Shown: positions 18,596-59,571 of the stretch, in pieces
How positions within the stretch are numbered: position 1 is the first letter of the stretch
Layout of the letters: each line of letters starts with the position of its first letter
Assembly (NCBI GenBank): GCA_902768735.1
Contig: CACXMK010000001.1
Span: 90,440-154,439 of the forward strand
Length of the DNA stretch: 64,000 nt
Reading direction: 5' to 3'
Source: an uncultured Lachnospiraceae bacterium
GTDB taxonomy: Bacteria > Bacillota > Clostridia > Lachnospirales > Lachnospiraceae
Position numbers and translations under genes: made by a program
The notes under the pieces: generated by a model
Databases searched by the model: none
The model's input: only the letters and a program-made list of their open reading frames with translations
Told to the model about the DNA's origin: nothing

Positions 18596-21500
18596 TTACT
18601 TCACAATCAACCTCCTTCTGTAGAAGATGACTCCGGCAATTCCCGCAATAGCCGTCATCAGCACAAGGCTCCAGGCACCCATGCCGCTGTCATCACCGGT
18701 TCGCGCGCCGGGAGGCGAAGGATGTTTCACGGTCTGTGCCTTATCCTCAAGGTCCCGATGGAAGCCGATGACGGTCTCATCGCCGGTCTTAGAATTGATC
18801 TCATAAAGAGTTTCAAATACTACGTACTCACCTTCCTTGAGCTTCGAACTGTCAAATGTAAAGGAAACCTTTACGGTCCCGTTCGTTTCTTTTGTCGTAA
18901 ACACCGCCTCTCCGACGATTTCACTTCCTCCGGCTTTAGCTGCTTTGCCGGTTGATTTGTTCATCAGAATACCGCTCACCCGGCATTTCGTACCAGGCAT
19001 AGCGTTCTTATACTCAACATCGTCTACGATTGTAACTGTCCCATTGTAGGAAATTTCATGGTCCCCGTCTTTTGCGTCTGTTGCGGTAGTACGGACTTCC
19101 GGCACATGAACAGTCTGTTCTTCGTCGTTGATGTCCTTATGCTCCGCAACGATCCTGCCTCTGCACACAATCTCTTCGTACGCCACAAGGCTCCTGCCGC
19201 CAAGTCCGCTTGTATTGAACGTGAATGTGACCTCTGCCGTGCCGTCGGCTGTATCAGGGATGAATGTAGCGGAAGCTGTCACTTTCTTGCCGTCGACCAG
19301 GACGGACTCACCGGCCGCTTTGTCCATGAGGACACCGCTTACTTCGTGGGGCACGCCCGGAGTAAGGCCCTCATATGTAATCGTATCGGTCAGCTCCACG
19401 TCAGAACCGGCAGGCACAAGATGTCCGCCGCTTTCCTTGTTGACAAGCATGGTACCGATCTTCGGAACTGCGACCGTCTGGTTATCGTTGTTAATGTCTT
19501 TATGGACAGCTAACTCAACTCCATTGTGGCTCACTGTCTCTCCTACCACGAGCTCCTCGCCCGCAAGGTCGGAAGCATCAACCTTAAAGCTTATGTAGAG
19601 GACGCCGCTCACGATCTCACCGTCACTGCCGGAAGGCGTGAAAGTGACTTTTTCCGCATCAAACGCGACACTGCCCTCGCCGCTCGCCGCGACGATCTCG
19701 GAAGGAACGGTATGCGCGTCGTCAAAGCTGATGCCGCTGCCCTCGGGCTTGATCTTAACTTCACCGCCGACCTCATAGGTCTTGCCGGCAACCAGTCCGT
19801 TATAAGAAACCTCGTCGACGACGATCCTGTCCTTTGCCGCGAGCACTTCCTTGCCGCCGGATTCGCCGTCATAAGCGTTCGTCTCGATGCCGGGGATGAC
19901 GACAGTCTGCTCCATGTCGTTTATGTCCTCATGCTTTGCAACAACGTGACCACCACAGGAAAGTACCTCGAACGCAATAAGCGCCTTGCCATCAAACCCA
20001 TTGGTATTGAAGGTAAATCTTACTTCTGCGGTGCCGTCAGCTGTATCCGGAATGAACGCGGCGGAAGCTTTCACTTCCTGCCCATTGACCAGAACCTGCT
20101 CACCCGTCGCCTTGTCCATAAGGACGCCGGTGACTTCGTACGCATCGCCCGGGATGAGGTTCTCGTAAGCTACCGTGTCTACGAGCTCGACATCGGTGTC
20201 CGCAGCCGCGACGTGCTCACCGCTCCCGTCGACGACCAAAGTGGTGCCGATCTTCGGGAAATGAATGGTCTGTTCTTCATCATCCGGGTTCCAATGTTCC
20301 GCACCGGGGATATTCTCCCAGTCATCGTTCGTATCGTCCGGCACAAGCTCTTCTTTTACTACGAGCGTTTTGCCCCCAAGAGCTTCTTCGCTGCAGCTGA
20401 ACTCAAATGTGACATCGACTGTTCCAGCCAGTTCGTCACCTGTCCTGAATTTCTTCAAGGCAGTGATCCCGTTTCCGTTTTCATCCTTGAAAGGCTTTTC
20501 CGTAGCCTTGTCCATGAGCGTGCCCTTCATCGTATAGTCGGTGTTCTCGTTAAGGTACTCATAGGATACCGTGTCAATGATCCTTATCAAGCCGTTCCCG
20601 GCGTATGCCATATGGCTGCGGGTCAGCTCGTCAACAGCGGAGGTTCTGATCGAAGGAGTCTTGGGGGTGTCGCTTACCGATATAGAATTTCCTACAGGCT
20701 CCATACCATGTACTACAATAAACTTTGCCTGCCCCTCGCTGTTCAAGACAATATTACCGATCAGCATGGATGCGCCTCCACCGAAATCGGGGTTGTTCTC
20801 ATAGCCGTCAGCGGGCTTTGTCTCAGTAATGGTGACTGTGCCAAGCGGAAATGTCGGGTTGCCCCTATTGTCAAGGTAGAACTCGTCTCCGCTCACAAAA
20901 GTTTCTGTCTGTACACAGTCACTGAAACGCGCAATATACTCACCGTTTTTCTCAATGGTCTTGATGGTCCAACTGCGCTCGGGCCCGGAAGGCAGCTCTT
21001 CTTCGGAATCATAGTATCCCTTGTAATAGCTGAAGGTAAATTCAGTTCCGGTAAGGCTCCTGGCCTTTACGCCGTTTGCCGCCTTCTTAACGATTCTGAT
21101 CTGTGCCGGGTCCGTCTTGGGAGTGTCCTCCACCATGATCTCCAGAGGGACACCTGCCGCGAGACCGCTCTTATCAACGTTGAATACTTCTTCGTTAATG
21201 TAGAAGCCTTCAGGGGCTTTGATCTCCTTGACCCAGTAGTCACCTGCAGGAAGGCTCTTGCCCGATGCAGCAAGACCGTCTTCGTCTGTCACGAGGACAT
21301 CAACCGGCTCTCCGGAACAATCCTCGCTGGCATAGATACCGAATTCCGCGCCTGCAAGGGAATAGCAGGTGTTGCCCTCAGTGATATCCGGGTTGCCAGA
21401 CTCTTTAACGACCGTTACGCCGACCTTCACAACAGGCTCCTGAACAGTCCTGTCGATCAACGAATAACGTGCCTCCGCTTCAAGCGCGGGAGTTGTGTCA

Positions 21501-23164
21501 ATAGAGAAATTACCAACCTTGTTGTAACCTTCAGGGGCCTTTACCTCTGTAACATAGTAATTCTGTATAAGCAGCTTATTTCCGTCCGCATCGGCCTTAA
21601 GCTGCTCCGATTTACCGCTTGCGTCTGTCGTCACCGTGCCAACCAGCTTGGTACGCTGCACATCTTTGTAGATGTTAAAAACCGCGCCTGCAAGGGAAGG
21701 GGCTTGTGTTCCCTCGGGGACACCCTTCGGCTCCTTGATGATCCGCAGGAAAACGTACTTGTAGTTCTCTGTGACTTCTACCGACTTACTGTCATTCGAT
21801 GCAAGTGTGACTGAGTATACTGTATTACTGAGCACATAACCGCCCTTGGTGGGCGCCTTCGTCTCGATAATGTAATACGTACCCGGGTCAGTTTCGTACG
21901 AGTTTGATTTTCCATTGCTGTTGATCGTCAGGGTCTTGATCGCGTTTCGCCTGCCTGCCGCGTCATCCCTTGTTTTATAGACACCGTACTGCGCTCCGGC
22001 AAGGCTGTAATTGCTGTTAGCCTTGATCTTTGCCAGCATCTCTTCATCGCTTTCATTCGGTGCCTTCTCGATGATGAAGGACGCCTTGTGCGGTACAAGC
22101 TCGAAGCTTCCAAAGCCGAAGTCCTGGTCAGTCCTTCCATATGTTACAACGTACACATAGTATCCGCCCGGGACTGACAGATCCTCAATCGCACTGACGA
22201 ATGCCTTGACATGCTCTTTGAGCTTGTTCGTCGTATCAATGAACCCGTCGCCTACATTTGATTTATACGCATAACCGAGGCGCGCGTATATCTCTGCTGC
22301 AGCCACATGCGTCACGATGTTGTTGGTGCCAGTGTCAGTAGTACCCGTAATTCTCTGGACTGTCGCCTTGCCCGGACCATAAGCGCCATAATAAAACGCT
22401 TTTACGAGCATCGGTGCCGTCATCTCGTAAACCTTAGTGCCGGTCTGGCCGACAATATTTCCTCCAAGACGGGGGTCCACGCAGATCGTATTACCTACCG
22501 CTTCGCTGTCATTGAGCAGGGCTGTGTAACTCGCCGTTTTCCAGGTACCATACCCCCTCGACTCATAAAGGTAGTAATGTCCCTGTCTGGACGTGATCGA
22601 GACTTTGTCAGACACGTCTTTTTTTGAGCCGGTACCGCCTCTCGTCCAGTCCGGCTCAGGAGCGGCCTTTTCCGACGCGCTTTTCAGGGGCATGGCAGTT
22701 TCATCGGGTTTCGTTGTCTCATCGGCCACATCGGGTACAGTGGTTTCGCCACTCCTGCCGATCTCTTCTTCTGCCGCGTGTTCCACATCCGACGCCTGAG
22801 TACAGCCGGCGTCCGGGTCATCGGTAGTCTCTGCTTCCTGTACAGCTGTGCTGCCGGCATCCTGCTCCTTTGCGATTTCCATCCACGGCTCATTTGTGCT
22901 TCCTATGTCCGATTCATCTGTAGCTCCGGCATCTGGTTCCTCTGCGGCCTCTGTCACTGTCTCACCTGCACTTCCGGTTTCTGGTTCGTCTGCAGCCTCT
23001 GTTTCGGGTTCTGTGCCCGAAATCGCAGTTTCTATGCCTCTTTCTTCTGAAGCTGCAGTATCTGTATCCGCAGCGCCTGACATCGCCGCGCCTTGCAGGG
23101 CGTATGAAAAAACAAGCACCGCCACGAACACGGATGCCACAATCCTGTTCTTCCACTTTTTCAT
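18596..23164 (-). CDS. large surface adhesin/pilin-like protein with SpaA and VaFE (T-Q ester) repeats
   Basis: 1522 aa, signal peptide in the first about 30 residues (MKKWKNRIVASVFVAVLVFS). Residues about 35-170 are an acidic Thr/Glu/Asp-rich stalk. A thioester-domain-like module follows, with C228 (TICVDPRLGG) and, where related domains have TQxA, a THVAAAE motif (H286). Then four SpaA/Cna-B-type domains (about 360-830; KAPEGYNKV, KEIKAPEGF, ETKPADGYE) and five VaFE repeats (about 836-1480) with IVDTVSYEYL-like starts, VAYEEI/AFEVL cores and EQTV ends, the Thr and Gln expected for intramolecular ester bonds. The C-terminus has GARTGDDSG, a membrane helix and RRR: a sorting signal without LPXTG. 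Starts ATG behind ACGGAGGGAAAA. No sortase gene is in the window. Confidence 0.9.
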   Translation of the reverse strand: MKKWKNRIVASVFVAVLVFSYALQGAAMSGAADTDTAASEERGIETAISGTEPETEAADEPETGSAGETVTEAAEEPDAGATDESDIGSTNEPWMEIAKEQDAGSTAVQEAETTDDPDAGCTQASDVEHAAEEEIGRSGETTVPDVADETTKPDETAMPLKSASEKAAPEPDWTRGGTGSKKDVSDKVSITSRQGHYYLYESRGYGTWKTASYTALLNDSEAVGNTICVDPRLGGNIVGQTGTKVYEMTAPMLVKAFYYGAYGPGKATVQRITGTTDTGTNNIVTHVAAAEIYARLGYAYKSNVGDGFIDTTNKLKEHVKAFVSAIEDLSVPGGYYVYVVTYGRTDQDFGFGSFELVPHKASFIIEKAPNESDEEMLAKIKANSNYSLAGAQYGVYKTRDDAAGRRNAIKTLTINSNGKSNSYETDPGTYYIIETKAPTKGGYVLSNTVYSVTLASNDSKSVEVTENYKYVFLRIIKEPKGVPEGTQAPSLAGAVFNIYKDVQRTKLVGTVTTDASGKSEQLKADADGNKLLIQNYYVTEVKAPEGYNKVGNFSIDTTPALEAEARYSLIDRTVQEPVVKVGVTVVKESGNPDITEGNTCYSLAGAEFGIYASEDCSGEPVDVLVTDEDGLAASGKSLPAGDYWVKEIKAPEGFYINEEVFNVDKSGLAAGVPLEIMVEDTPKTDPAQIRIVKKAANGVKARSLTGTEFTFSYYKGYYDSEEELPSGPERSWTIKTIEKNGEYIARFSDCVQTETFVSGDEFYLDNRGNPTFPLGTVTITETKPADGYENNPDFGGGASMLIGNIVLNSEGQAKFIVVHGMEPVGNSISVSDTPKTPSIRTSAVDELTRSHMAYAGNGLIRIIDTVSYEYLNENTDYTMKGTLMDKATEKPFKDENGNGITALKKFRTGDELAGTVDVTFEFSCSEEALGGKTLVVKEELVPDDTNDDWENIPGAEHWNPDDEEQTIHFPKIGTTLVVDGSGEHVAAADTDVELVDTVAYENLIPGDAYEVTGVLMDKATGEQVLVNGQEVKASAAFIPDTADGTAEVRFTFNTNGFDGKALIAFEVLSCGGHVVAKHEDINDMEQTVVIPGIETNAYDGESGGKEVLAAKDRIVVDEVSYNGLVAGKTYEVGGEVKIKPEGSGISFDDAHTVPSEIVAASGEGSVAFDAEKVTFTPSGSDGEIVSGVLYISFKVDASDLAGEELVVGETVSHNGVELAVHKDINNDNQTVAVPKIGTMLVNKESGGHLVPAGSDVELTDTITYEGLTPGVPHEVSGVLMDKAAGESVLVDGKKVTASATFIPDTADGTAEVTFTFNTSGLGGRSLVAYEEIVCRGRIVAEHKDINDEEQTVHVPEVRTTATDAKDGDHEISYNGTVTIVDDVEYKNAMPGTKCRVSGILMNKSTGKAAKAGGSEIVGEAVFTTKETNGTVKVSFTFDSSKLKEGEYVVFETLYEINSKTGDETVIGFHRDLEDKAQTVKHPSPPGARTGDDSGMGAWSLVLMTAIAGIAGVIFYRRRLIVK

Positions 23165-25454: not shown

Positions 25455-26453
25455 ATGAAAAGAAACATCATCAGATTCGCTGCGTTTGCCTTAACTGGTT
25501 TTCTGTTACTGCAGGCTGCTTCCTTTTTTTTTCGTGGAAGTTACTGGTTCAGCAGAGGATTTATTTATGATCGAACGGCAAGGCTGGCTGCATTTGACAC
25601 AGAGACACCTGGTCAGATCGATGTGCTCAATCTTGGGGACAGCTTAAGCATCTGTGCTCTCTCCCCGCTGGAACTGTTCAGGGATTACGGTATCACTTCC
25701 TATAATCTCGGACAAGATATGCAGTTTCCTGTTGAATCTTATTATGCCTTAAAGCATGCGTTAAAGACACAGCCCATAAAAGTTGTGCTGCTGGAAACAA
25801 ATGCCATTTTTTATGAAAACAGCCTTGCGGATGAAGGCGTGAAAACTCTGTCTGAATCACTGCAGAGCCTATTTCCGTTCTTAAGATATCACAATCTTTG
25901 GAAAATACCGTTTATGAAAAAGAGTATCCGCAGTTATTTCAAAGGATATACGATCAACGAAATAGAGCGGCCGTTTACATACGATAAGGAATATGACTTC
26001 AACAATACTACCGTCTATTATCCGATAGCCAGACAGCAACTATTTCAATTAAAAAGAATTCAAAAACTCTGCGAAGACTATGGGATAACACTGATCCTGT
26101 ATAGTTCCGCTTCCATCATGAACTACTATACGATGCGTAAACATAACACTCTGATTGACATATGCAGAGAAAACGGAATACACTTTATTGACGCCAACTA
26201 CGACATTGCTTCCGTAAACGTAAACTGGGAAACGGACACTTGGGATAATGGTGACCACCTGAATCTCTCAGGATGCAGGAAAATGACCGCTTATCTCGGA
26301 GACCGTCTGAGAGCCACAGTAAATGATCTTCCTGATCACCGTTCAGACCCTCTCTATGTATCATGGACAGAAATGTATCAGGACTATCTTGCTGAAGTCG
26401 AAAAGATGGAAGGAAAGAACTATTCGATGATCGAAAATGAGCTCAGGCATTAA
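25455..26453 (+). CDS. membrane-anchored SGNH/DltD-like protein (paralogue 1)
   Basis: 332 aa from the ATG at 25455, chosen from the promoter position; no clear RBS is seen, and MMTEALLL eight codons earlier is an alternative. One N-terminal membrane helix (about 8-28) and an extracytoplasmic domain. SGNH block I is NLGDSLSI (nucleophile S63); block V is NGDHLNLSG near residue 270. The segment SPLELFRDYGITSYNLG closely matches the minus-strand SGNH gene at 27619-28686 (CPMELWRDYGYTSFNIG), so the two are paralogues. SGNH proteins of the DltD/AlgJ kind work with MBOAT proteins in acylating surface polymers. The gene converges on the end of the dlt-like operon and is AT-rich. Confidence 0.8.
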   Translation: MKRNIIRFAAFALTGFLLLQAASFFFRGSYWFSRGFIYDRTARLAAFDTETPGQIDVLNLGDSLSICALSPLELFRDYGITSYNLGQDMQFPVESYYALKHALKTQPIKVVLLETNAIFYENSLADEGVKTLSESLQSLFPFLRYHNLWKIPFMKKSIRSYFKGYTINEIERPFTYDKEYDFNNTTVYYPIARQQLFQLKRIQKLCEDYGITLILYSSASIMNYYTMRKHNTLIDICRENGIHFIDANYDIASVNVNWETDTWDNGDHLNLSGCRKMTAYLGDRLRATVNDLPDHRSDPLYVSWTEMYQDYLAEVEKMEGKNYSMIENELRH

Positions 26454-26460
26454 TATCAGT

Positions 26461-26498
26461 AAAAAGCGCACCGGCTTCATCACCGGTGCGCTTTTTTT
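26461..26498. terminator. bidirectional terminator between SGNH paralogue 1 and the glycosyltransferase
   Basis: AAAAAGCGCACCGG / CCGGTGCGCTTTTTTT, perfect 14-bp stem with an eight-base loop and runs on both sides; serves both convergent transcripts. Confidence 0.9.
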
Positions 26499-26528: not shown

Positions 26529-27569
26529 TCAACGATCAGACTCTTTTTGGTAAAACTGTCCTGTTCTTTCACTTATAATATAACGCGGACGATGTTTCAC
26601 TTCGAGATATATTTTGCCGATATACTCTCCGATTACTCCCAGCGCAATCAGCTGGACACCGCCCAGAAAGCAGACGATGGAAGTCATGCTGGCCCATCCG
26701 CTGACGGTTCTCCCCATACAGAAGCAAACTATAGACCAGATAACTCCAAGAATGCTGAATGCTGCAACAATGAATCCCATCAGAGTAATCAGACGGATCG
26801 GCTTAACAGAAAGACTCGTTATTCCATCGAATGCCAATGCCAGCATCTTTCTTAAGGGATAGTGGCTGTCACCTGCGATTCTCTCATGCCGCACATAATA
26901 AACAGTGCTGCTGCGGAAACCGACAAGCGGGAACAAACCTCTCAGAAACAGGTTTACTTCTTGAAAATCCGCGAATTCCTTCAATACGCGAGCAGAGACC
27001 AATCTGTAATCCGCATGGTTAAACACAACTTCGGCGCCCATCATGTTTAGCAATCTGTAGAATGACTCAGCTGTATTTTTCTTGAACCATGTATCATTGT
27101 TCCGGTCAGAACGAACACCATAGACAACCTCGCTGCCTTTTTTATACTCGGCGACCATCTGCGTCATTGCGTCGATGTCGTCCTGCCCGTCACAATCAAT
27201 AGATATTGTGATGTCGCAATGATCCTTAGCCTCCATTAATCCGGCCAGAACCGCATTTTGATGGCCTCTGTTTCTACTCTGGGAAATGCCAATCACATGA
27301 TCGTCTTTAACGGACAGATCAGAAATGATTCTCCAGGTTTCATCCGAAGATCCATCATTGACATACAATAATTTGCTCTGTTCATCCACGTCGCCAGCGC
27401 TGATCAGACTCAAAAGCTTATTAAGAAACATTTCTGAAGTCAGCGGAAGTACTTTTTCTTCGTTATAACAGGGGATGATGATCCATAGAACCGGGGTCGC
27501 GCATCTTACTGTCTCGTCTTTCGCTCTCCTCTTTTCGATTTTTGCTTTATCGTCTAATAAATCATCCAA
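26529..27569 (-). CDS. GtrB/DPM1-like polyprenyl-phosphate glycosyltransferase (GT2)
   Basis: 346 aa from a TTG codon eight bases behind AAAGGA. GT-A catalytic domain (about 25-245) with IIIPCYNEEKVLPLT, VNDGSSDETW and ISIDCDGQDDID (metal/nucleotide acidic residues), and QSRNRGHQNAVLAGL. Two C-terminal membrane helices (about 250-315). Enzymes of this type move a sugar from a nucleotide donor to undecaprenyl phosphate for later use outside the cell. It is the last gene of the dlt-like operon, 49 bp after SGNH paralogue 2, and is followed by a strong terminator. It probably supplies the sugar or the acceptor for the modification; which sugar is unknown. Confidence 0.88.
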   Translation of the reverse strand: MDDLLDDKAKIEKRRAKDETVRCATPVLWIIIPCYNEEKVLPLTSEMFLNKLLSLISAGDVDEQSKLLYVNDGSSDETWRIISDLSVKDDHVIGISQSRNRGHQNAVLAGLMEAKDHCDITISIDCDGQDDIDAMTQMVAEYKKGSEVVYGVRSDRNNDTWFKKNTAESFYRLLNMMGAEVVFNHADYRLVSARVLKEFADFQEVNLFLRGLFPLVGFRSSTVYYVRHERIAGDSHYPLRKMLALAFDGITSLSVKPIRLITLMGFIVAAFSILGVIWSIVCFCMGRTVSGWASMTSIVCFLGGVQLIALGVIGEYIGKIYLEVKHRPRYIISERTGQFYQKESDR

Positions 27570-27618
27570 AATGAATTCCTTTCACTGGTTGAACCTGTAC
27601 CCGGAAACAGCGATATTC

Positions 27619-28686
27619 TTACTGTTTAGTCGTTTTTTTCTGCTTTCTGTACTTCTTGTCCCAGATTTCTTTTTCCCTTTGATTAAAGATATCCTGAAAG
27701 CTGAGTCCATCCATATCCTTAACAAGCTGGTCAAATTCAACAAGTTCTTTATTCCAGTCGTTGTATGCCGGATCATCACTGTGATCCGTAAGCTGATAAT
27801 TCGACTGGAGATATTTCCCGAGAAATTCCGTGACCTTGACAGCTCCGAAATAGTTCATATGGTCACCGGCGTCATTGGTATCCTGTTCCCAGTCAATCCC
27901 TATTTCGTCGACATACTCATTCAAATCGATATAATCTACACCCTCCTCTGCGGAGAACTGCTCAAGATAGTGGATCCTCTCCCAGTTATAGTTCATAGGA
28001 GAAACCGTGCTGTATATAACAATTTGAATACCCTGCTTGTCACAGAAGCTTTTTAGCCTGCGGAACCAGGTTCGGTTAAACTGGGAAATGGTCATATTCT
28101 GGTTTTTATCCTCGAGCGGATAGTCCAGGTAGTTATCAGGTCCCTCATAAGGCCACACATTCTCATTGACTGTGTACCCTCTGTGATAGATCATAACGTT
28201 CGGCCGTTCCACCAGAGATTTCCAAATATTATGGTATTTTAAGAACGGCACTCTGTAATAGATCGGCTGTGACAAAAGCATGATGCTATCATCTCCACGG
28301 CCGTATCGGAACAGCGACAGCGACTCGATCAAAAGGATTTGGGGATTCTGCTTTTGACAGGCATTTATGACCGAATAATAATTCTCCGCAATACGTAGTC
28401 CGTCTGCGCCGATGTTAAAACTGGTGTACCCGTAGTCCCTCCACAATTCCATTGGACAAAATACGGTAATGCTCAGGCTATCTCCGATATTCAGTATGTC
28501 AATCGTATTCTCCGGCTGTTCTGTGACCAGAATGTACCTTGCATCTCTGTTTTGATATGTTTTATCGTGCACCCATTTGACCGGATCCATCATCGATGAA
28601 AACACAAACAATAGCAGTACAAGAATTGCTGCGAACAGTATGATCTTTAAAACATTTTTTGTTTTACAAGATGTTATTTCAGACAT
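27619..28686 (-). CDS. membrane-anchored SGNH/DltD-like protein (paralogue 2)
   Basis: 355 aa from the ATG at 28686, only two bases after the MBOAT stop; longer starts would run into the MBOAT gene. N-terminal membrane helix (about 10-32), then a DltD/AlgJ-like extracytoplasmic SGNH domain: NIGDSLSI with S70, and AGDHMNYFG near residue 275 as block V. The C-terminus is Lys-rich (KKYRKQKKTTKQ). Placement directly behind an MBOAT gene is the standard arrangement of DltB-DltD and AlgI-AlgJ pairs, so it should be the partner that hands an acyl or aminoacyl group to the polymer on the outer face. Confidence 0.88.
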   Translation of the reverse strand: MSEITSCKTKNVLKIILFAAILVLLLFVFSSMMDPVKWVHDKTYQNRDARYILVTEQPENTIDILNIGDSLSITVFCPMELWRDYGYTSFNIGADGLRIAENYYSVINACQKQNPQILLIESLSLFRYGRGDDSIMLLSQPIYYRVPFLKYHNIWKSLVERPNVMIYHRGYTVNENVWPYEGPDNYLDYPLEDKNQNMTISQFNRTWFRRLKSFCDKQGIQIVIYSTVSPMNYNWERIHYLEQFSAEEGVDYIDLNEYVDEIGIDWEQDTNDAGDHMNYFGAVKVTEFLGKYLQSNYQLTDHSDDPAYNDWNKELVEFDQLVKDMDGLSFQDIFNQREKEIWDKKYRKQKKTTKQ

Positions 28687-28688
28687 TA

Positions 28689-30266
28689 TCAGAACCCCGC
28701 GTAAATCAGGTCTACCGGCTGGTAGCCTGTTCCATAGGCTCCAAACAGCAGGATCGAGAAGATGATCAGGTAATAGACGCACCACTTTGCCGGCGTCCGT
28801 GCACCAAGGATCTTACCTCTGATATCCAATCCCTGTTCCTTGAGGAAACCAACGATCCAGACGATGATGCTTCCGATAACGATTGCCCAGAGGTCTCCGG
28901 CAGAAACAACATCAGGCATGTACTTCCAGATCGAGCTGATATGGAAATTGCCGAAGATGCTGAAGAACATCCTGAATCCGATACTGAGACTGTCTGCTCT
29001 GAAGAACAGTTCACCGGTAAAGATGATGACCCAGGTCTTAAGGATCCTGATGATCTTCATGGGCTTTGCGTCAAAGCTGATCCCGAGTCTCTCGTAGTTC
29101 TTCTCCTTGAAGGGTTTGATCGCCTCTCCGAAAAACAGTATGACAAAATAGTACATACCATAGAAAAGATACTTCCACCCCGCACCATGCCATACGCCGG
29201 TTGCTAACCATACAGGAAACAGAGCCATAGCGGAAGTGCCCACCATCGCCCAGTATTTGCCGTATTTTTTCCTAGCCGTCTTATTCCAGTTCTTGACCGG
29301 AGCAGAGACAGTGACCGGATAGAACACATAGTTCCTGAACCAGTTGCCAAGACTCATATGCCAGCGGCGCCAAAACTCCGCGGCGCTCTGCGCGGAGAAA
29401 GGTTGGTTAAAATTCTCCGGGATCGTCACACCGAACAACTTGCCGCTGCCGATTACGATATCGATACTGCCCGAAAACTCAAGATAGAGCTGTACCGTAT
29501 AAGCGATCGCAGCCAAAATGATAAAGCTGCCGTGATACTCTTTATAGTTGCCGTAAATGTAATCTGTAAGGTAACTGATCCTGTCCGAGATGATCATCTT
29601 TTTGAAAAGGCCCCAGATAATGCGCAGGAATCCCTCGTTGATATTTGCCATATTGAGAGGTTCTCCGGCAAAAAGGGCTTCCGACGTGTCGGGGAACCTG
29701 GCGATCGGTCCCTCCATGATCTGCGGGAAAAAGCTGAGGAACAGCGCCACTTTACCCAAATGCTTCTCCGCCGGATATCTCTCCCAGTATACGTCAGCCA
29801 GATAGCCGACGGCTTCCAGCGTGTAAAAGGAGATGCCCATCGGGAACATGACTTTTACTATCGGCAGTTTGGCGAACCTGCCGATCAGAATATTGATATT
29901 GCCCGCGACGAAGTTATAGTAATTGACATAGAACAAAATGCCCAGCAAAACAAGGACTCCCAGTCTGAGTACCCAAACTCTTTTCTTCTGAAAGTCCTCT
30001 TTCACGGCTTTTTTCTGTTTTTTGTCGGTGCATTCCGCCTGTTTCCTTACGCACTCCTCGCCGATCCTGTCCATCCAAAGACCGATTCTCCAGGTAAACG
30101 CAGCTGTTGCCATGAGGAGAAGCACAAGGTATTTGCTGAAAGTTATGTATAACGCATACGAGGCGGCGAGCAGAACTCCCCACCTTGCTTTGCGCGGTAC
30201 CAACTGATATAGGATCAATACTGCAGGTAGAAAAATCAGCAGGTACAGGTTCGTATATATGGCCAT
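28689..30266 (-). CDS. MBOAT-family O-acyltransferase (DltB/AlgI-like)
   Basis: 525 aa, about 11 hydrophobic segments. MBOAT marks: catalytic H360 in GVWHGAGWKYLFYG, and EFWRRWHMSLGNWFRNYVFY upstream of it; SFFPQIMEGPIARF and MFPMGISFYTLEAVGYL are also typical. A charged cytoplasmic loop lies near residues 70-100. DltB passes a D-alanyl group from carrier DltC across the membrane, and AlgI does likewise with acetyl groups. Here a carrier gene ends four bases upstream and an SGNH gene starts two bases downstream, which favours the DltB-like role with a carrier-bound donor. Confidence 0.93.
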   Translation of the reverse strand: MAIYTNLYLLIFLPAVLILYQLVPRKARWGVLLAASYALYITFSKYLVLLLMATAAFTWRIGLWMDRIGEECVRKQAECTDKKQKKAVKEDFQKKRVWVLRLGVLVLLGILFYVNYYNFVAGNINILIGRFAKLPIVKVMFPMGISFYTLEAVGYLADVYWERYPAEKHLGKVALFLSFFPQIMEGPIARFPDTSEALFAGEPLNMANINEGFLRIIWGLFKKMIISDRISYLTDYIYGNYKEYHGSFIILAAIAYTVQLYLEFSGSIDIVIGSGKLFGVTIPENFNQPFSAQSAAEFWRRWHMSLGNWFRNYVFYPVTVSAPVKNWNKTARKKYGKYWAMVGTSAMALFPVWLATGVWHGAGWKYLFYGMYYFVILFFGEAIKPFKEKNYERLGISFDAKPMKIIRILKTWVIIFTGELFFRADSLSIGFRMFFSIFGNFHISSIWKYMPDVVSAGDLWAIVIGSIIVWIVGFLKEQGLDIRGKILGARTPAKWCVYYLIIFSILLFGAYGTGYQPVDLIYAGF

Positions 30267-30270
30267 TTAC

Positions 30271-30498
30271 TCAGTTCTCCTGAAGCCTCTGAATCATTTT
30301 CCACATTGCTGCCGCTGAATTAAAGTTCTCGGGGGTCATCTCCGCTGCGTCAACTTCCACGTCAAACGTCTCTTCGATCTCGGAGATCAACGTGATAATG
30401 CCAAAAGAATCCAGAATGTGGTTGTCTATAAGAGCTGTCTCTGTCTCATAATCTACAGAATCGTCAATATCCTGCAGGATCTCAAGTAATTCGTCCAT
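30271..30498 (-). CDS. acyl/aminoacyl carrier protein (DltC-like)
   Basis: 75 aa, acidic, four-helix carrier size. The phosphopantetheine serine is S31 in ILDSFGIITL, the DSFG form found in DltC (other carriers have DSL). ISEIEETFDVEVD follows. RBS AGGAGGAAAT. It lies four bases before the MBOAT gene and 149 bp after the second PLP enzyme. A dedicated adenylation enzyme is encoded in the same unit, so its load is probably an amino acid rather than a fatty acid. A phosphopantetheinyl transferase is not in the window. Confidence 0.9.
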   Translation of the reverse strand: MDELLEILQDIDDSVDYETETALIDNHILDSFGIITLISEIEETFDVEVDAAEMTPENFNSAAAMWKMIQRLQEN

Positions 30499-30647
30499 AA
30501 TTTCCTCCTGATGTTACTTATTTTTTCTGACAATCATGCTCACGTTACAATACTTGCATGGCAGTGCATTCGTCATAAACTTTCAATATGACTATCATAG
30601 CTTATTTACCCTGAAACTTCCACTGCAAATTAAAAAAACCAGTTTCT

Positions 30648-31844
30648 TTAGTATTTCGCCATGTTCAGCGTGTAGGACTGCTGCTGCGCGCGCGCCTGTA
30701 TGAATCCCTCTTTTTCACCGTAAAGGATGACACCAGGGATTTCATGACTAAGGAACAGGGACATTCCTTCATAGAAACTATAGCCGCCCGTCCTGTGGAA
30801 GACGATGCGGTCGCCGAGGCCGAGCGTCTCGGTAAATCCGCGGCAGAGCACGTCGTTCATCGTGCAGAGGGAACCGCAGACCATCCAGTCCTTCTGTTCC
30901 CGCACTGCCCCGCTCTCCACGGGAATGACCGACATCTGAGGCTTGTACATGCCCTTGATCTGGCCGTCATAATTGATCTGGTGGATACCGCCGTCGACGA
31001 GGCAGATCGCATTGCCGTCATTTTCTTTGATGTCAAGAGCTGTAGTCACATAGCAGCCGCATTCCGCCGCATAGGCCCTGCCCATTTCGATCGTGACGAT
31101 CCCCTTCCAATTCATGTCAGAGACCATCCTGCGGAATTCTTCGAGCGGCTCGGGATCGCGCAGATCCTGCTCTTTCTTCTGGTCCACAAAATAGGAGACA
31201 GCAAACCCTGTCCCGTATTCAAGCTCGGGGACACAGAAACCAGCCTCTTTCTCCAGCCTCTCAAAGAAGGCGTCAAGCATCGCAAGCTCTTTCTCGTGCT
31301 TTTTCAGCTTCTTTTTCTGGGTTCCCGAGAAGAAATGGATCCCTGCAAATTCGATATGAGGAAATCTGTCAGCCCTGTCCTTTATGAGCGCACAGATCGT
31401 GTCCTCATCCATGCCGAACTGACTGGCGTTGGTCAGTCTCGGATAGACCCTCAGGGTCTTTCCGTGCGCGTCAGCCCAATCGGAGAGCATCTGCAGCTGC
31501 AGAGGCGACTCCGCAGTGTAGCGCGCGATGTCCTGCCCGTATTCGAGGATCTCCATGAGGTCCTCGCGGATCTTGAGGACGCCTGAGATATAGAGTTTCT
31601 CCGGCGCGATCTTCAGATCCCTGCAGATCCTGAACTCTCCCATAGAGCAGACTTCGATGCGCTCCACCTGCCGCGACATTTCCAACGTCAGAAAAGGATT
31701 GGTCTTCATGGAGTAAGTCAGACCGATCTCGTCTTTAAACGCGTCTTTGAAACGCTGTACGCGGTCGCGGATGACATCGAGGTCAAACAGGTATAGCGGT
31801 GTGCCGAACCGGTCCGCAGCTTCCTTGATCTTGTTCAGTTCCAT
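30648..31844 (-). CDS. fold-type III PLP enzyme, LysA/decarboxylase-like, in dlt-like operon
   Basis: 398 aa. Alanine racemase/decarboxylase fold: PLP lysine K47 in YSMKTNP, GIHFFSGTQ, and a C-terminal half with CGSLCTMNDVL (C327, the active-site cysteine region of decarboxylases) and HRTGGYSFYEG, matching the D(T/A)GAY segment. It is only distantly like the second LysA-like gene of this operon. Family members decarboxylate diaminopimelate, ornithine, arginine or carboxynorspermidine; racemases share the fold. Its place between the adenylation enzyme and the carrier suggests that it makes or tailors the amino acid (or works on the carrier-bound form). Substrate cannot be read from the sequence. 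Confidence 0.82.
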   Translation of the reverse strand: MELNKIKEAADRFGTPLYLFDLDVIRDRVQRFKDAFKDEIGLTYSMKTNPFLTLEMSRQVERIEVCSMGEFRICRDLKIAPEKLYISGVLKIREDLMEILEYGQDIARYTAESPLQLQMLSDWADAHGKTLRVYPRLTNASQFGMDEDTICALIKDRADRFPHIEFAGIHFFSGTQKKKLKKHEKELAMLDAFFERLEKEAGFCVPELEYGTGFAVSYFVDQKKEQDLRDPEPLEEFRRMVSDMNWKGIVTIEMGRAYAAECGCYVTTALDIKENDGNAICLVDGGIHQINYDGQIKGMYKPQMSVIPVESGAVREQKDWMVCGSLCTMNDVLCRGFTETLGLGDRIVFHRTGGYSFYEGMSLFLSHEIPGVILYGEKEGFIQARAQQQSYTLNMAKY

Positions 31845-31900
31845 ACTTGTCCTTTCGTAATCTTTAAAACGCCTTATGTATTGTCTTTAAAAATGCAGTC

Positions 31901-33421
31901 TTATTTCGCGAGGAGCGACCTGAAATAAGCCCTGTCTATTTTGCCGTTCTTATTATAAGGCATCTCCTCAACGCGGTAGATCCTTCCGGGCACCATGTAG
32001 GCCGGAACCTTCTCTTTGAGTCTGACCCTGACTTCCTTGGGCTCGATCTCACCAAGATACCAGCAGACGATCCTGTTCTTGGGCTCGTCGAAGAGGCAGA
32101 CCGCCCTTTCCACGCCATCGAGCGCCGTAAAGTTAGTCTCGATCTCCTCGAGCTCAATGCGATGCCCCATGTGTTTGATCTGGAAATCGCCGCGTCCGGC
32201 AAAATACAGCTCGCCGTCCGTGCCATACGCAGCAAGGTCGCCGGTCTTGTACACACGCTGCGTGACACCGTCCAGGTCATACATGATGAACTGCTTCGCT
32301 GTCTGTTCGGGGTTATTGTAATACCCGATCGCAAGTGATTCGCCTGCGCAGCAGATCTCTCCGGACTTGCCGGGTTCTGTCACGATCTTTCCCTCGTCGT
32401 CCATAAGGAATACGGTCCTGCCGGGGAAAGCGCCGCCGATGGGAAGCTTATCGGTCTTCTCAAAAGTCTTATTGATCCTGTAATACGTACAGTTGCATGT
32501 GATCTCAGAAGGTCCGTAGAGATTGACATACTGCGTTTCGGGAAGCGCCGCCTGCCAGATCTGCAGATGTTTGATCGGCATCACTTCGCCGCTGAACATG
32601 ATCATCCTGACCTTCTCGGGGACCCTGTAGCGCAGTCCCTTGAGGCCGGAGACGATGCAGAGAGCGGACACAGCCCAGATCAGGACTGTCACGTTCTTAT
32701 CGCACAGGTAATCGAGGAGCCTGGGCGGCGTGCTGAAGAATTCCCTGGGGATCAGCACGACTTCTGCGCCTGTGAACATGGCGGAGTAAAGATCCTTCAC
32801 CGAGACGTCAAAGTCAAAAGGCGCCTGGTTTCCGATGATATCATCACTTCCGATCCCAAAGATCTCTGTAAAATGACCGATAAAGTCAATGACCGACTTA
32901 TGCTGTACGACGATGCCTTTGGGGTTTCCCGTGGAGCCGGAAGTGAATACACCGTAAAGCGGATCCTCCCCCTTCATCTTTTCGCGGATAACAGCCAGTT
33001 TTTCTGCCGCTTCCTCAGACTTTTCTGCTGCATCTTTATAGAGCTCCTCAAGGGACAGAACAGCGCCTGTATAGCCTGACGCAGCAAGCTGCTCTCTCCT
33101 TGCTTCATCCACCACGACGGTCTTTGACTCCAGGACCTCAAGGATCTTCCTGATCCTTTCCGGCGGCTGCTCGGGGTTGACGCTCACATAAAATCCGCCC
33201 GCATAAACGACGCCGTACATACAAGCCAATGTAGCGGTGCTCTTCTCTGCCAAAATAGCGACAGGCTCACCTTTCACAATTTTCTCGCACAGGATGCTTC
33301 CGATCCCACGTGCCGCATCTCCCATCTGGCTATAGGTCAATGCCGTCACGCCATCGTCCACGGCAAGCCTTTCTCCGAATTCTTTCTCTGTAAGTTCCAG
33401 TCTGTCCAGTACTGTCTCCAA
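31901..33421 (-). CDS. amino-acid adenylation enzyme, DltA-like
   Basis: 506 aa, the size of DltA (stand-alone adenylation enzyme, no carrier domain). Core motifs: A3 FTSGSTGNPKG (about 160), A5 NLYGPSEITCN (about 300), A7 YKTGDLAAYG (about 390), A8 GRGDFQIKHMGHRIELEEIE, and A10 NKNGKID with catalytic K494. The pocket aspartate that binds the alpha-amino group is kept (FDFDVSVKD). It should activate an amino acid with ATP and load it on the carrier at 30271-30498. RBS GGAGAAGC, a few bases before the ATG. Canonical DltA uses D-alanine; nearby PLP enzymes make a different substrate possible. Confidence 0.88.
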   Translation of the reverse strand: METVLDRLELTEKEFGERLAVDDGVTALTYSQMGDAARGIGSILCEKIVKGEPVAILAEKSTATLACMYGVVYAGGFYVSVNPEQPPERIRKILEVLESKTVVVDEARREQLAASGYTGAVLSLEELYKDAAEKSEEAAEKLAVIREKMKGEDPLYGVFTSGSTGNPKGIVVQHKSVIDFIGHFTEIFGIGSDDIIGNQAPFDFDVSVKDLYSAMFTGAEVVLIPREFFSTPPRLLDYLCDKNVTVLIWAVSALCIVSGLKGLRYRVPEKVRMIMFSGEVMPIKHLQIWQAALPETQYVNLYGPSEITCNCTYYRINKTFEKTDKLPIGGAFPGRTVFLMDDEGKIVTEPGKSGEICCAGESLAIGYYNNPEQTAKQFIMYDLDGVTQRVYKTGDLAAYGTDGELYFAGRGDFQIKHMGHRIELEEIETNFTALDGVERAVCLFDEPKNRIVCWYLGEIEPKEVRVRLKEKVPAYMVPGRIYRVEEMPYNKNGKIDRAYFRSLLAK

Positions 33422-33503
33422 ATCAGCTTCTCCTTTATTTCATGAACTCTAGTGAATGATCTTTATTGCATGATCTTTAGCGTGGATCTGACCGTCCGGT
33501 CTT

Positions 33504-34799
33504 TCAGCCGCGCAATTCCTTGAAACTCTCCTGCAGTTTGCCGTAAAACGCCGTGTTGCTGAATGTCGCGAAATAGTCCATCTCCGTCTCCGCGCGGCGG
33601 ATCTCTTTGACGCTCCCGTCTTCTTTCAGGAGAAGTTCCGCGCTGCGCAGTCTGCCGTTGTAATTGTATCCCATCGCGTAGCCGTGCGCACCCGCGTCAT
33701 GGATAAAGAGATAGTCGCCTTGATCGATCTTGGGAAGCAGGCGGTCCACAGCGAATTTGTCGTTGTTCTCGCACAGAGAGCCTGTGACATCATACATATG
33801 GTCCCTGAGAGCGTCCTCTTTCCCGAGCACCGTGATGTGATGATACGCGCCGTACATAGCCGGTCTCATCAGGTTTGCCGCGCAAGCGTCGACGCCGATA
33901 TACTCTTTGTAGATATGCTTTTCGTGGATCGCTTTCGTGATCAGTGCGCCGTAGGGAGCCAGCATGAAGCGGCCCATCTCGCAGTAGATCGCGACGTCGT
34001 CCATTCCCTTTTCGCGGAATACCGCGTCGTAGACCTCCTTTACGCCTTCGCCGATCACAGAGATATCGTTGGGCGTATCGTACGGTGAATAGGCAATGCC
34101 GACACCGCCGGAAAGATTGACGAACGCGATATGCACGTCAAATGTGCGGTGGATCTCAGCTGCCAGTTCAAACAGCTGCGCCGCCAGCATGGGATAATAC
34201 TCGTTGGTCACGGTATTGCTCGCAAGGAAAGCATGAATGCCGAAGTGTTTGACGCCTTTCTCTTTCAGGATCCTTACGCCTTCAAAGAGTTGCTGCTTGG
34301 TAAATCCGTACTTGGAGTCCCCGGGGTTGTCCATGATACCGTTGGACATTCTGAACACGCCGCCCGGATTATAGCGGAGGCTCATGGTCTCCGGAAATTT
34401 TCCGTTCAGGATCTTCTCAAGGAACGGGATATGCGTGATGTCATCGAGATTGATGATCGCACCCAGCTTTGCCGCATACGCATATTCCTCAGCCGGCGTA
34501 TCGTTGGAGGAAAACATGATATGCTGTCCATCCGCTCCGACAGCGTTCGCCAGCATCAGTTCAGCCAGGGACGAGCAGTCGTATCCGAAATCATAGTCCT
34601 TAAAGATCTCCATGATATAGGGATTCGGCGTCGCCTTTACGGCAAAATACTCACGAAAACCTTTATTCCATGCAAACGCCTTTTTAACAGCCTCCGCATT
34701 CTCACGGATTCCCTTTTCATCATACAGATAAAAGGGAGTGGGCCATGTTTTCGCGATCTCTTCTGCCTTTTCTCTGGTGATGTAGGGCACTTTCTTCAT
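33504..34799 (-). CDS. lysA: diaminopimelate decarboxylase-like PLP enzyme
   Basis: 431 aa. Closest by eye to clostridial LysA, which makes L-lysine from meso-diaminopimelate. PLP lysine K55 in YFAVKATPNP; glycine-rich phosphate site NLSGGVGIAYSPY; EMGRFMLAPYG; cysteine motif TGSLCENNDKF; and HDAGAHGYAMGYNYNGRLR, matching the DTGAYGFSMASNYNSRPR block of the family. RBS GGAGGTAAGAT. It is the first gene behind an extended -10 promoter, 82 bp before the adenylation gene, so it may be both the cell's LysA and the operon's supplier of lysine. A different diamino acid substrate is possible. Confidence 0.85.
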   Translation of the reverse strand: MKKVPYITREKAEEIAKTWPTPFYLYDEKGIRENAEAVKKAFAWNKGFREYFAVKATPNPYIMEIFKDYDFGYDCSSLAELMLANAVGADGQHIMFSSNDTPAEEYAYAAKLGAIINLDDITHIPFLEKILNGKFPETMSLRYNPGGVFRMSNGIMDNPGDSKYGFTKQQLFEGVRILKEKGVKHFGIHAFLASNTVTNEYYPMLAAQLFELAAEIHRTFDVHIAFVNLSGGVGIAYSPYDTPNDISVIGEGVKEVYDAVFREKGMDDVAIYCEMGRFMLAPYGALITKAIHEKHIYKEYIGVDACAANLMRPAMYGAYHHITVLGKEDALRDHMYDVTGSLCENNDKFAVDRLLPKIDQGDYLFIHDAGAHGYAMGYNYNGRLRSAELLLKEDGSVKEIRRAETEMDYFATFSNTAFYGKLQESFKELRG

Positions 34800-34847
34800 A
34801 TCTTACCTCCGACTTCTTTCATTTATCATTTATTTAATTGAAAACAG

Positions 34848-34856
34848 ATTATAGCA
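34848..34856 (-). promoter_or_regulatory. extended -10 promoter of the dlt-like operon
   Basis: Minus strand TGCTATAAT: -10 TATAAT at 34848-34853 with TG one base upstream; no good -35. About 45 nt leader, too short for a lysine riboswitch. The flanking 34860-34930 is very AT-rich. Confidence 0.6.
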
Positions 34857-34980
34857 CACCGATCAAAACGATTTATAAATCAAATCTAAAAGATTTTAAA
34901 CAGAACAATAATAAAAAAGAATCTTTTGCAATAATGCCTGACTGCGCAGCTGTTGCCTGAGCGCAGCACACTCCGCGGCC

Positions 34981-58862: not shown

Positions 58863-59198
58863 TTATAACGTAAAGATCAGGATTCCCACAAGTATGACCG
58901 CAATTCCGATCATACGGCGTCTGCTGATCTTTTCCTTTAAAAGAATCACTCCGAAAATGGGGATAAAAATGTAACTCAGGCTTTCGATCATCGGAGAATA
59001 AGAGTACGGAACAACTCTGAGGGCAAACATCGTCAGCAGTGCACAAAGGAAAAATAACGCATACGCCCCAATCACAAGCGGATTTAAGTATTCTTTAGCC
59101 CTGTTTTCATATTTCCTTCCGGCCGCAATCTTCAGGATTACCTGTGAAAACGAGGAAAGCAGTACGGAGGACAACCAAAGCAATATATATTTACCCAT
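58863..59198 (-). CDS. small multidrug-resistance/EamA-like membrane protein, subunit A
   Basis: 111 aa, four hydrophobic helices, no soluble domain. LLSSFSQVILKIAAG resembles the N-terminal helix of ArnE/ArnF and SMR proteins, and VILLKEKISRRRMIGIAVIL matches the EamA-type ending (E-x-x-x-G). Its start overlaps the end of subunit B by eight bases, so both are probably made together and form a heterodimer, as ArnE-ArnF do for undecaprenyl-linked aminosugar. Substrate unknown. Confidence 0.8.
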   Translation of the reverse strand: MGKYILLWLSSVLLSSFSQVILKIAAGRKYENRAKEYLNPLVIGAYALFFLCALLTMFALRVVPYSYSPMIESLSYIFIPIFGVILLKEKISRRRMIGIAVILVGILIFTL

Positions 59199-59571
59199 CG
59201 TTGCTCACCCCTATCACGATCCCGATTATTATCACAATCGCCCCGATGACCATTTTGAGCGTTACCTGTTCATTAAACAGGAATTTTCCCCATAACAGTG
59301 AATAAATCACGGTAATAGGTTTATTCATAAAGGCGAACGTCAGTGACATCCGTTTGAGCACCTGCTGCCACAGGATCGCAAAACTAATGCAGATCATCAT
59401 GAGAAGCGTATACAGCAGGAAGAAACGGATGGACAGGAATTTCGCCCGTCCTGCAAATTTGGATACGACCCCGGTCGTGGAATTAAGGAACAATGTAAGA
59501 TGCAGAATGAAAAACCAGAAAAGCGGAATCTCCAGCCTGTTCTTCTTTTTTTGTCCGTCTGTCTGATTCAT
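59191..59571 (-). CDS. small multidrug-resistance/EamA-like membrane protein, subunit B
   Basis: 126 aa, four hydrophobic helices after a short charged N-terminus (MNQTDGQKKKNRLE). Contains FAFMNKPITVIYSLLWGKFL followed by EQVTLKMVIGAIVIIIGI, the second EamA/SMR half pattern. It overlaps subunit A. The methyltransferase gene lies about 140 bp upstream on the same strand. A role in flipping a lipid-linked sugar is a reasonable guess from ArnE/F analogy only. Confidence 0.78.
   Translation of the reverse strand: MNQTDGQKKKNRLEIPLFWFFILHLTLFLNSTTGVVSKFAGRAKFLSIRFFLLYTLLMMICISFAILWQQVLKRMSLTFAFMNKPITVIYSLLWGKFLFNEQVTLKMVIGAIVIIIGIVIGVSNDG

Follow-up and report, generated by a model that had tools for sequence, protein, structure and literature searches.

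What does a dlt-like operon carry to the cell surface when a second pyridoxal phosphate (PLP) enzyme, of the LysA fold, is encoded between its adenylation enzyme and its carrier protein? The question is raised by a 64,000-nucleotide stretch from an uncultured Lachnospiraceae bacterium (contig CACXMK010000001.1, positions 90,440 to 154,439), referred to below as the window. A check of open reading frames (ORFs) confirmed seven minus-strand genes at 26529-34799, and the 2-149 bp gaps described in an earlier, sequence-only reading were borne out as 82, 56, 149, 4, 2, and 49 bp, taking as the SGNH start the ATG at 28686, 2 bp past the MBOAT stop, in preference to a longer GTG ORF. Family scans agreed with the families named there: LysA-like, DltA-like, a second LysA-fold enzyme, a DltC-like carrier, MBOAT, and GT2. 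Dlt surface aminoacylation uses D-alanine and affects charge and sensitivity to antimicrobial peptides. For the operon studied here we propose, with a probability of roughly 0.55, a dlt-like aminoacylation in which the cargo would be tailored on the carrier: aspartate would be loaded on the acyl carrier protein (ACP), decarboxylated to beta-alanyl-ACP, and transferred through the MBOAT protein to an envelope polymer.

Five Genes Form the Conserved Unit

The second LysA-fold enzyme (PLP2) was searched for in 150 genomes of the window's family, one per genus, with E up to 1e-20, and homologues were found in 37, the window's own included. Of 38 other PLP2 places fetched, 35 loci from 34 genomes were kept; L071-L073 (26-28% identical) were left out of the family counts. 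A gene counted as a neighbor if it was no more than 6 kb from PLP2 and shared its strand. By this measure the adenylation enzyme (A) accompanied PLP2 in 33 of the 35 family loci, ACP in 32, MBOAT in 26, and SGNH in 18, and where 6 kb was available on both sides (23 loci) the counts were 23, 22, 18, and 11. The same four neighbors were found in 20, 17, 16, and 16 of 20 same-genus loci (drawn from 33 other PLP2-positive genomes), in 18, 19, 15, and 12 of 20 order-level loci (drawn from 31 places new to the sampling), and in 79, 74, 73, and 63 of the best 80 of at least 542 confirmed named loci, a set that overlaps the genome sets. The conserved unit is therefore five genes: A, PLP2, ACP, MBOAT, and SGNH. 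Conservation extends to the second PLP enzyme, which has A beside it in 33/35 and ACP in 32/35 family loci, and the co-occurrence that had been suggested for seven families holds for these five and fails for LysA and GT2 (0/35 each). Among the matches listed, carriers in the Lachnospiraceae include Blautia, Lacrimispora, Roseburia hominis, and [Ruminococcus] faecis, and other carriers are Mogibacterium, Lactimicrobium, Oscillospiraceae, and Christensenella. In the [Ruminococcus] faecis locus L211 (8374-11176) A and PLP2 are each in two pieces, as pseudogenes or through sequencing errors.

LysA and GT2 were rejected as parts of the module. The LysA-like gene (33504-34799, minus strand), with PF02784 and PF00278 domains by family scan, stands upstream of it and is a probable housekeeping diaminopimelate (DAP) decarboxylase: its best 13 PDB matches are all so named, although it scores 269.9 bits against the TIGR01048 cut-off of 297.9. 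It looks like a housekeeping gene because LysA and PLP2, both at the operon, are the only two PF00278 genes in the window assembly (85.5% complete). The possibility that it is only this, with a terminator of its own, was largely supported, although no terminator was found in the 82-bp gap to A. LysA occurs near PLP2 only in the window's own lineage (7 of the same-genus and 5 of the named loci, none of the order-level ones), is beside the module in none of the 35 family loci, and is separated from it by another gene in 12/12 loci, which count some genomes twice; the intervening gene is a divergent SGNH gene in 11 and HAD-like (by eye) in L212. GT2 (26529-27569, minus strand), a PgfS/ArnC-like polyprenyl glycosyltransferase by family scan, is near PLP2 in 0/35 family, 0/20 genus, 1/80 named, and 2/20 order-level loci.

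These counts bear on the earlier proposal that lysine, a D-diamino acid, or an amine is installed, LysA giving the precursor and GT2 the glycan. LysA lies 82 bp upstream without an obvious terminator and GT2 49 bp downstream, and co-transcription is possible in this strain. The zero counts for both genes in the family, the gene that intervenes in the 12 loci with LysA nearby, and a basic pocket residue ill suited to lysine nevertheless make this proposal very improbable.

The Adenylation Enzyme Has a Non-Canonical Pocket

The A gene (31901-33421, minus strand, TTG start) encodes a DltA-like adenylation enzyme of 506 aa, as judged from the ORF, family scan, and AlphaFold model. It scores 325 bits with TIGR01733, and its model (predicted local distance difference test, pLDDT, 91) retrieves DltA (3e7w) at Foldseek rank 5. 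The score with the DltA model TIGR01734 is 274.9 bits, below the cut-off of 559.85; the MBOAT protein scores 135.8 against 375 with the DltB model TIGR04091, and the carrier 27.0 against 52.35 bits with TIGR01688 and 39.9 against 68 with NF003464, both DltC models. These cut-offs place the operon outside the Dlt equivalog families.

The pocket residues of A are D205, V206, K209, W249, S277, L301, C309, and N310, mapped to the usual numbering through conserved motifs and not by computation from a structure. DltAs of the canonical type (our own label, since 4/150 genomes pass TIGR01734 and the other such rows fall just or well below it) mostly have the code D-L-M-S-C-T-V-A, and 7/8 of their rows share the first three residues and C at 301, the exception being L122. 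Of eight positions compared, the window enzyme, D-V-K-W-S-L-C-N, shares D205 with the usual canonical code and departs from it at seven, and most PLP2-linked A enzymes resemble it (D-V-K, W, S, L/V, C-N). Our survey covered 167 A rows (154 distinct), of which 128 are PLP2-adjacent; these have Lys (120) or Arg (8) at position 239, residue 209 of A, whereas the eight canonical-type rows have Met (7) or Ile (1). The survey includes 40 A loci (L096-L134, L082) chosen non-exhaustively before the pocket codes were known, some in genomes with PLP2 elsewhere. In L133 a DVK-type A is severed by the contig end from a probable PLP2.

Lys at 239 favors an acidic substrate, and since this pocket residue is basic, lysine would be unsuited as cargo; the lysine or diamino acid of the sequence-only reading thus loses ground, while its suggestion of a cargo other than D-alanine is supported by the pocket. 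A strict specificity of A for D-Ala is not what the pocket suggests. If this were a diverged dlt operon that carries out ordinary D-alanylation, the match of its enzyme classes to DltABCD would be explained; we give this reading very little credence, since the DltA, DltB, and DltC models all remain under their cut-offs, the pocket differs at 7/8 positions, and a tree of 69 A enzymes sets the 8 DltAs of the canonical type apart from the 61 dlt-like enzymes at 100/100 (this tree omits L098, L126, and L134 and carries a long-branch warning, above all for L130).

Other dlt-like arrangements were seen in the survey. A third group of A enzymes, with the code SM-x/A/DI and without the amine-binding Asp, occurs in L102, L105, L106, L113, L128, and L131. 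In L097 (2-850) and L127 (7222-8103) a formyltransferase-like PF00551 gene adjoins ACP, the pocket is of the DVK type, and there is no PLP2; carrier-bound N-formylation is possible there.

PLP2 Resembles a Carrier-Dependent Decarboxylase

PLP2 (30648-31844, minus strand) is a LysA-fold PLP enzyme that matches PF02784 with 53 and PF00278 with 34 bits, and from the family scan and structure model we propose it as a carrier-dependent decarboxylase. Its best solved relative by sequence is BtrK (2j66, 7ru7), and its AlphaFold model (pLDDT 91) places BtrK at rank 1, with SbnH next by fold. Residues K47, E253, C327, D331, and Y355 are invariant across 31 aligned rows; we take K47 to be the PLP lysine, E253 the glutamate that binds the pyridine nitrogen, and C327 the catalytic cysteine of the decarboxylase fold. 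Decarboxylase models match 31/31 rows. PLP2 scores 128 bits with the DAP decarboxylase model TIGR01048, below the cut-off of 297.9, and has the motif GSLCTMND, as against GSLCENND in the window LysA, whose Glu is presumably the binder of the far amine of diaminopimelate. We therefore read PLP2 as a probable decarboxylase that is not a DAP enzyme. A racemase is disfavored: alanine racemases have Arg in place of the pyridine-binding Glu, and PLP2 has E253 and keeps the catalytic Cys.

In butirosin biosynthesis BtrK, likewise a LysA-fold decarboxylase, acts on an amino acid bound to the ACP BtrI. It is the top match of PLP2 by both sequence and fold, but identity is about 25% and the BtrK substrate is glutamate; the BtrK/BtrI system also uses a different ligase. 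A standalone ACP and a loading enzyme adjoin PLP2 in the window and in 32 and 33, respectively, of the 35 family loci. A second parallel is found in exosortase-A systems, where the AMP ligase TIGR03098 and the LysA-fold decarboxylase TIGR03099 work as a pair. TIGR03099 is the best NCBIfam model for PLP2, but the operon scores far below both cut-offs (188.3 against 592.35 bits for TIGR03098, 145.8 against 478.45 for TIGR03099). The PLP2 of L061 (7213-10557) belongs to a 1114-aa fusion protein that also has an extended region of low complexity, what seems to be a membrane segment, Ig-like domains, and a transglutaminase-like core.

A Sister Group Is Linked to Aspartate-Type Racemases

A sister group of A enzymes with the code DAK/G/GM also has Lys at 239, and an aspartate/cysteate-type racemase is adjacent in 9/10 of them, the tenth lying about 4 kb beyond its operon; the same comparison in the other A rows without adjacent PLP2 gave 0/29. 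Each of the 10 scanned racemases passes the cut-offs of TIGR00035 and NF052483; such glutamate-racemase models as were listed scored far under theirs. Within the family, these loci make up another type of dlt-like operon, with the order racemase-A-ACP-MBOAT-SGNH (L099, L101, L103, L108, L109, L114, L125, L129, L132; L125 is a cut locus in which no SGNH was seen); its cargo may be D-aspartate or a residue much like it. The A enzyme of L061 is placed within the racemase group (100/100), yet is partnered with PLP2, which argues for partner exchange around one substrate type, aspartate-like.

The closeness of PLP2 to BtrK, named L-glutamyl-[BtrI acyl-carrier protein] decarboxylase, allows another substrate: A could load Glu via its gamma-carboxyl and PLP2 could make gamma-aminobutyryl-ACP (GABA-ACP), as BtrK does for butirosin. 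Lys at 239 also occurs in a Glu-specific A domain, for which the literature matches listed gave no direct support. Given that the racemases of the sister group are of the aspartate/cysteate type (10/10 above both cut-offs) and that the pantothenate locus described below would need beta-alanine, not GABA, we consider glutamate unlikely and aspartate the better candidate.

One Genome Has A and PLP2 in a Pantothenate Locus

In genome G101 (locus L068; 93% complete) the gene order is panB, panC, coaBC, A, PLP2, a phosphodiesterase-like gene (by eye), nadB, and nadC, the pan and nad names being confirmed by family scan. The A ORF overlaps coaBC by 8 bp and its product falls inside the PLP2-linked clade of the A tree; a cognate ACP is encoded on another contig (124 bits). 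PanC needs beta-alanine, which is normally made from aspartate by PanD, and PanD was not detected in the G101 genome. Across the family sample PanC was found in 38/150 and PanD in 35/150 genomes, and PanC without PanD in G002, G098 (a PanC fragment), and G101.

This locus also bears on the form in which the substrate is decarboxylated. The sequence does not fix the order of the steps, and PLP2 stands without a nearby A in two order-level loci; PLP2 could then decarboxylate free aspartate, with A activating free beta-alanine. In that case A and ACP would be needless in G101, where free beta-alanine would serve PanC, yet G101 retains A beside PLP2 and ACP elsewhere, which favors decarboxylation on the carrier. 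Moreover, A enzymes of the racemase group have no decarboxylase alongside and yet retain the acid-type pocket residue, and BtrK and SbnH, the nearest relatives, use conjugated substrates. We regard the free-substrate order as improbable. Pantothenate is not what the module serves in most carriers, as no PanC was detected in 24 of the other 34 family genomes with PLP2; in the window genome (assembly 85.5% complete) neither PanC nor PanD was found.

Transfer Machinery

The remaining genes, all on the minus strand, encode the DltC-like carrier with the serine of LDSFG (30271-30498; ORF and family scan), the MBOAT acyltransferase with His360 and a C-terminal LIYAGF acyl-shuttle motif (28689-30266; family scan and alignment), and an SGNH protein in a DltD-like role (27619-28686). 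At the thresholds applied, neither Pfam nor NCBIfam had a model that matched the SGNH proteins, which are recognized by their GDSL serine and DxxDH motifs. In alignments of PLP2-locus rows plus the window, after score and length filters, the carrier serine is present in 124/124 rows, the MBOAT His in 112/112, and the SGNH Ser and His in 99/99 and 98/99. YxxF occurs near the C-terminus of 110/116 PLP2-locus MBOATs; of the other six, four end in YxxY and two look cut or shifted at the end. The motif is also found in 20/25 MBOATs of other fetched dlt-like loci and so marks the wider dlt-like group, not PLP2 alone. The DltBs of canonical-type loci lack it in 7/7 cases.

As described in one report, a tyrosine hexapeptide at the MBOAT C-terminus acts as an acyl shuttle in PatA/PatB MBOAT-SGNH acylation, and in Dlt it is provided by DltX (PMC12148441). 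PatA/PatB differs from the operon in its donor, acetyl-CoA instead of a carrier protein. Thus the operon appears to encode a system that is carrier-fed like Dlt, with the shuttle fused to the MBOAT as in PatA.

Proposed Pathway

We infer four steps. A would adenylate an acidic amino acid, most likely aspartate via its beta-carboxyl, and load it on ACP; PLP2 would strip the free alpha-carboxyl from the ACP-bound residue to give beta-alanyl-ACP; MBOAT would shift beta-alanine onto its own C-terminal tyrosine; and the SGNH protein or proteins would then esterify it to a polymer outside, in the envelope. Activation of the beta- rather than the alpha-carboxyl is preferred because PLP2 needs a free alpha-carboxyl, and on account of the PanC case. 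The gene unit, the catalytic residues, the basic pocket residue, and the likeness of PLP2 to BtrK are read from the sequence, and the substrate, the carboxyl group activated, the order of steps, the product, and the acceptor are predictions from them. A decarboxylated product was among the cargoes named in the sequence-only reading, and this part of it appears to hold.

As in Dlt (DltA/C/B/D/X), adenylation enzyme, carrier, MBOAT, and SGNH are in one operon and the aminoacyl donor is carrier-bound; the operon differs in its pocket, its extra PLP enzyme, and a shuttle tyrosine fused to MBOAT instead of a separate DltX. For the first two steps there is precedent in the vicenistatin (VinN/VinL/VinO) and fluvirucin B2 (FlvN) systems: according to PMC11284099, VinN loads 3-methylaspartate on VinL and VinO, a PLP enzyme, decarboxylates it, loading being required first, while FlvN recognizes aspartate and the fluvirucin B2 starter is beta-alanine. 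There too the A enzyme and the ACP are standalone proteins, and (3-methyl)aspartate loaded by the one is decarboxylated on the other, but the Vin and Flv enzymes feed a polyketide synthase and not a surface polymer, and the likeness to the operon drawn here is one of described function. By analogy, the operon may work like VinN/VinO joined to a Dlt-type exporter. No beta-alanyl or dlt-plus-decarboxylase system was described among the open-access literature matches listed.

Several observations weigh against this pathway. The alanine-racemase N-terminal model also matches 30/31 PLP2 rows. MBOAT is absent within 6 kb on the same strand in 5/23 family loci with full flanks (L037, L049, L059, L064, L068), and PLP2 has no A nearby in the order-level loci L260 and L264 (2/20). 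The code IAR/S/AS, without the amine-binding Asp, is found in 8 A rows with PLP2, and DVK-type A enzymes occur without adjoining PLP2 in L097, L107, L111, L112, and L127, two of them with a formyltransferase. The theme therefore varies. Furthermore, the neighborhood and pocket counts follow clades and are not independent, and Fisher values calculated from them overstate their independence. The pan-operon case is a single genome, 93% complete, in which PanD could sit in a gap, and the missing PanD alone proves nothing, because G002 has PanC, no PanD, and no PLP2 hit. A general link between the module and pan genes is unsupported: L193 and L208 carry panBC near the module yet keep PanD, and panB and panC gave no hit in the 20 further order-level loci.

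Extending the proposal, we suggest tentatively, and at somewhat less than even odds, that a Clostridia dlt-like family selects and then tailors carrier-bound cargo before export, giving beta-alanine by decarboxylation, D-aspartate through supply by a racemase, or N-formyl residues by a formyltransferase, and that in one lineage the module has taken over from PanD the supply of beta-alanine for pantothenate. If true, such systems would install amino-acid esters that are new to us; we know of none from bacterial surface polymers. The machinery is found in many gut Clostridia genomes; should it make its cargo on the carrier, common commensals would bear an unrecognized surface chemistry. The pocket residues might then serve to forecast what a dlt-like operon carries, and there would be a possible second route to beta-alanine.

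Flanking Features

The operon is framed, as had been claimed, by an extended -10 element (TGTGCTATAAT; 34848-34858, minus strand) upstream of LysA and a strong terminator-like hairpin at 26466-26491. Both were located by eye; a consensus scan, which found about as many sites as chance predicts (19 promoter-like against 14.2 +/- 3.5, and 8 terminator-like against 9.4 +/- 3.1), listed neither the element at 34858-34848 nor the hairpin. The hairpin, in which a 9-bp inverted repeat without mismatches is flanked on each side by A/T runs, is common to both strands: the operon and a convergent plus-strand gene for a second SGNH protein (SGNH2, 25455-26453; 32% identical to the operon SGNH) run toward it. 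Additional SGNH genes surround the operon in several same-genus loci too. No Rfam family matched between 24000 and 36000 of the window at gathering scores.

Near the operon, a minus-strand gene at 18596-23164 encodes a large surface protein (1522 aa) that carries SpaA/Cna-B-like repeats and, at its C-terminus, a membrane segment (by eye). Elsewhere in the window (58863-59571, minus strand) a tandem pair of genes encodes small EamA/SMR-like membrane proteins (by eye) that resemble lipid-sugar flippase subunits.

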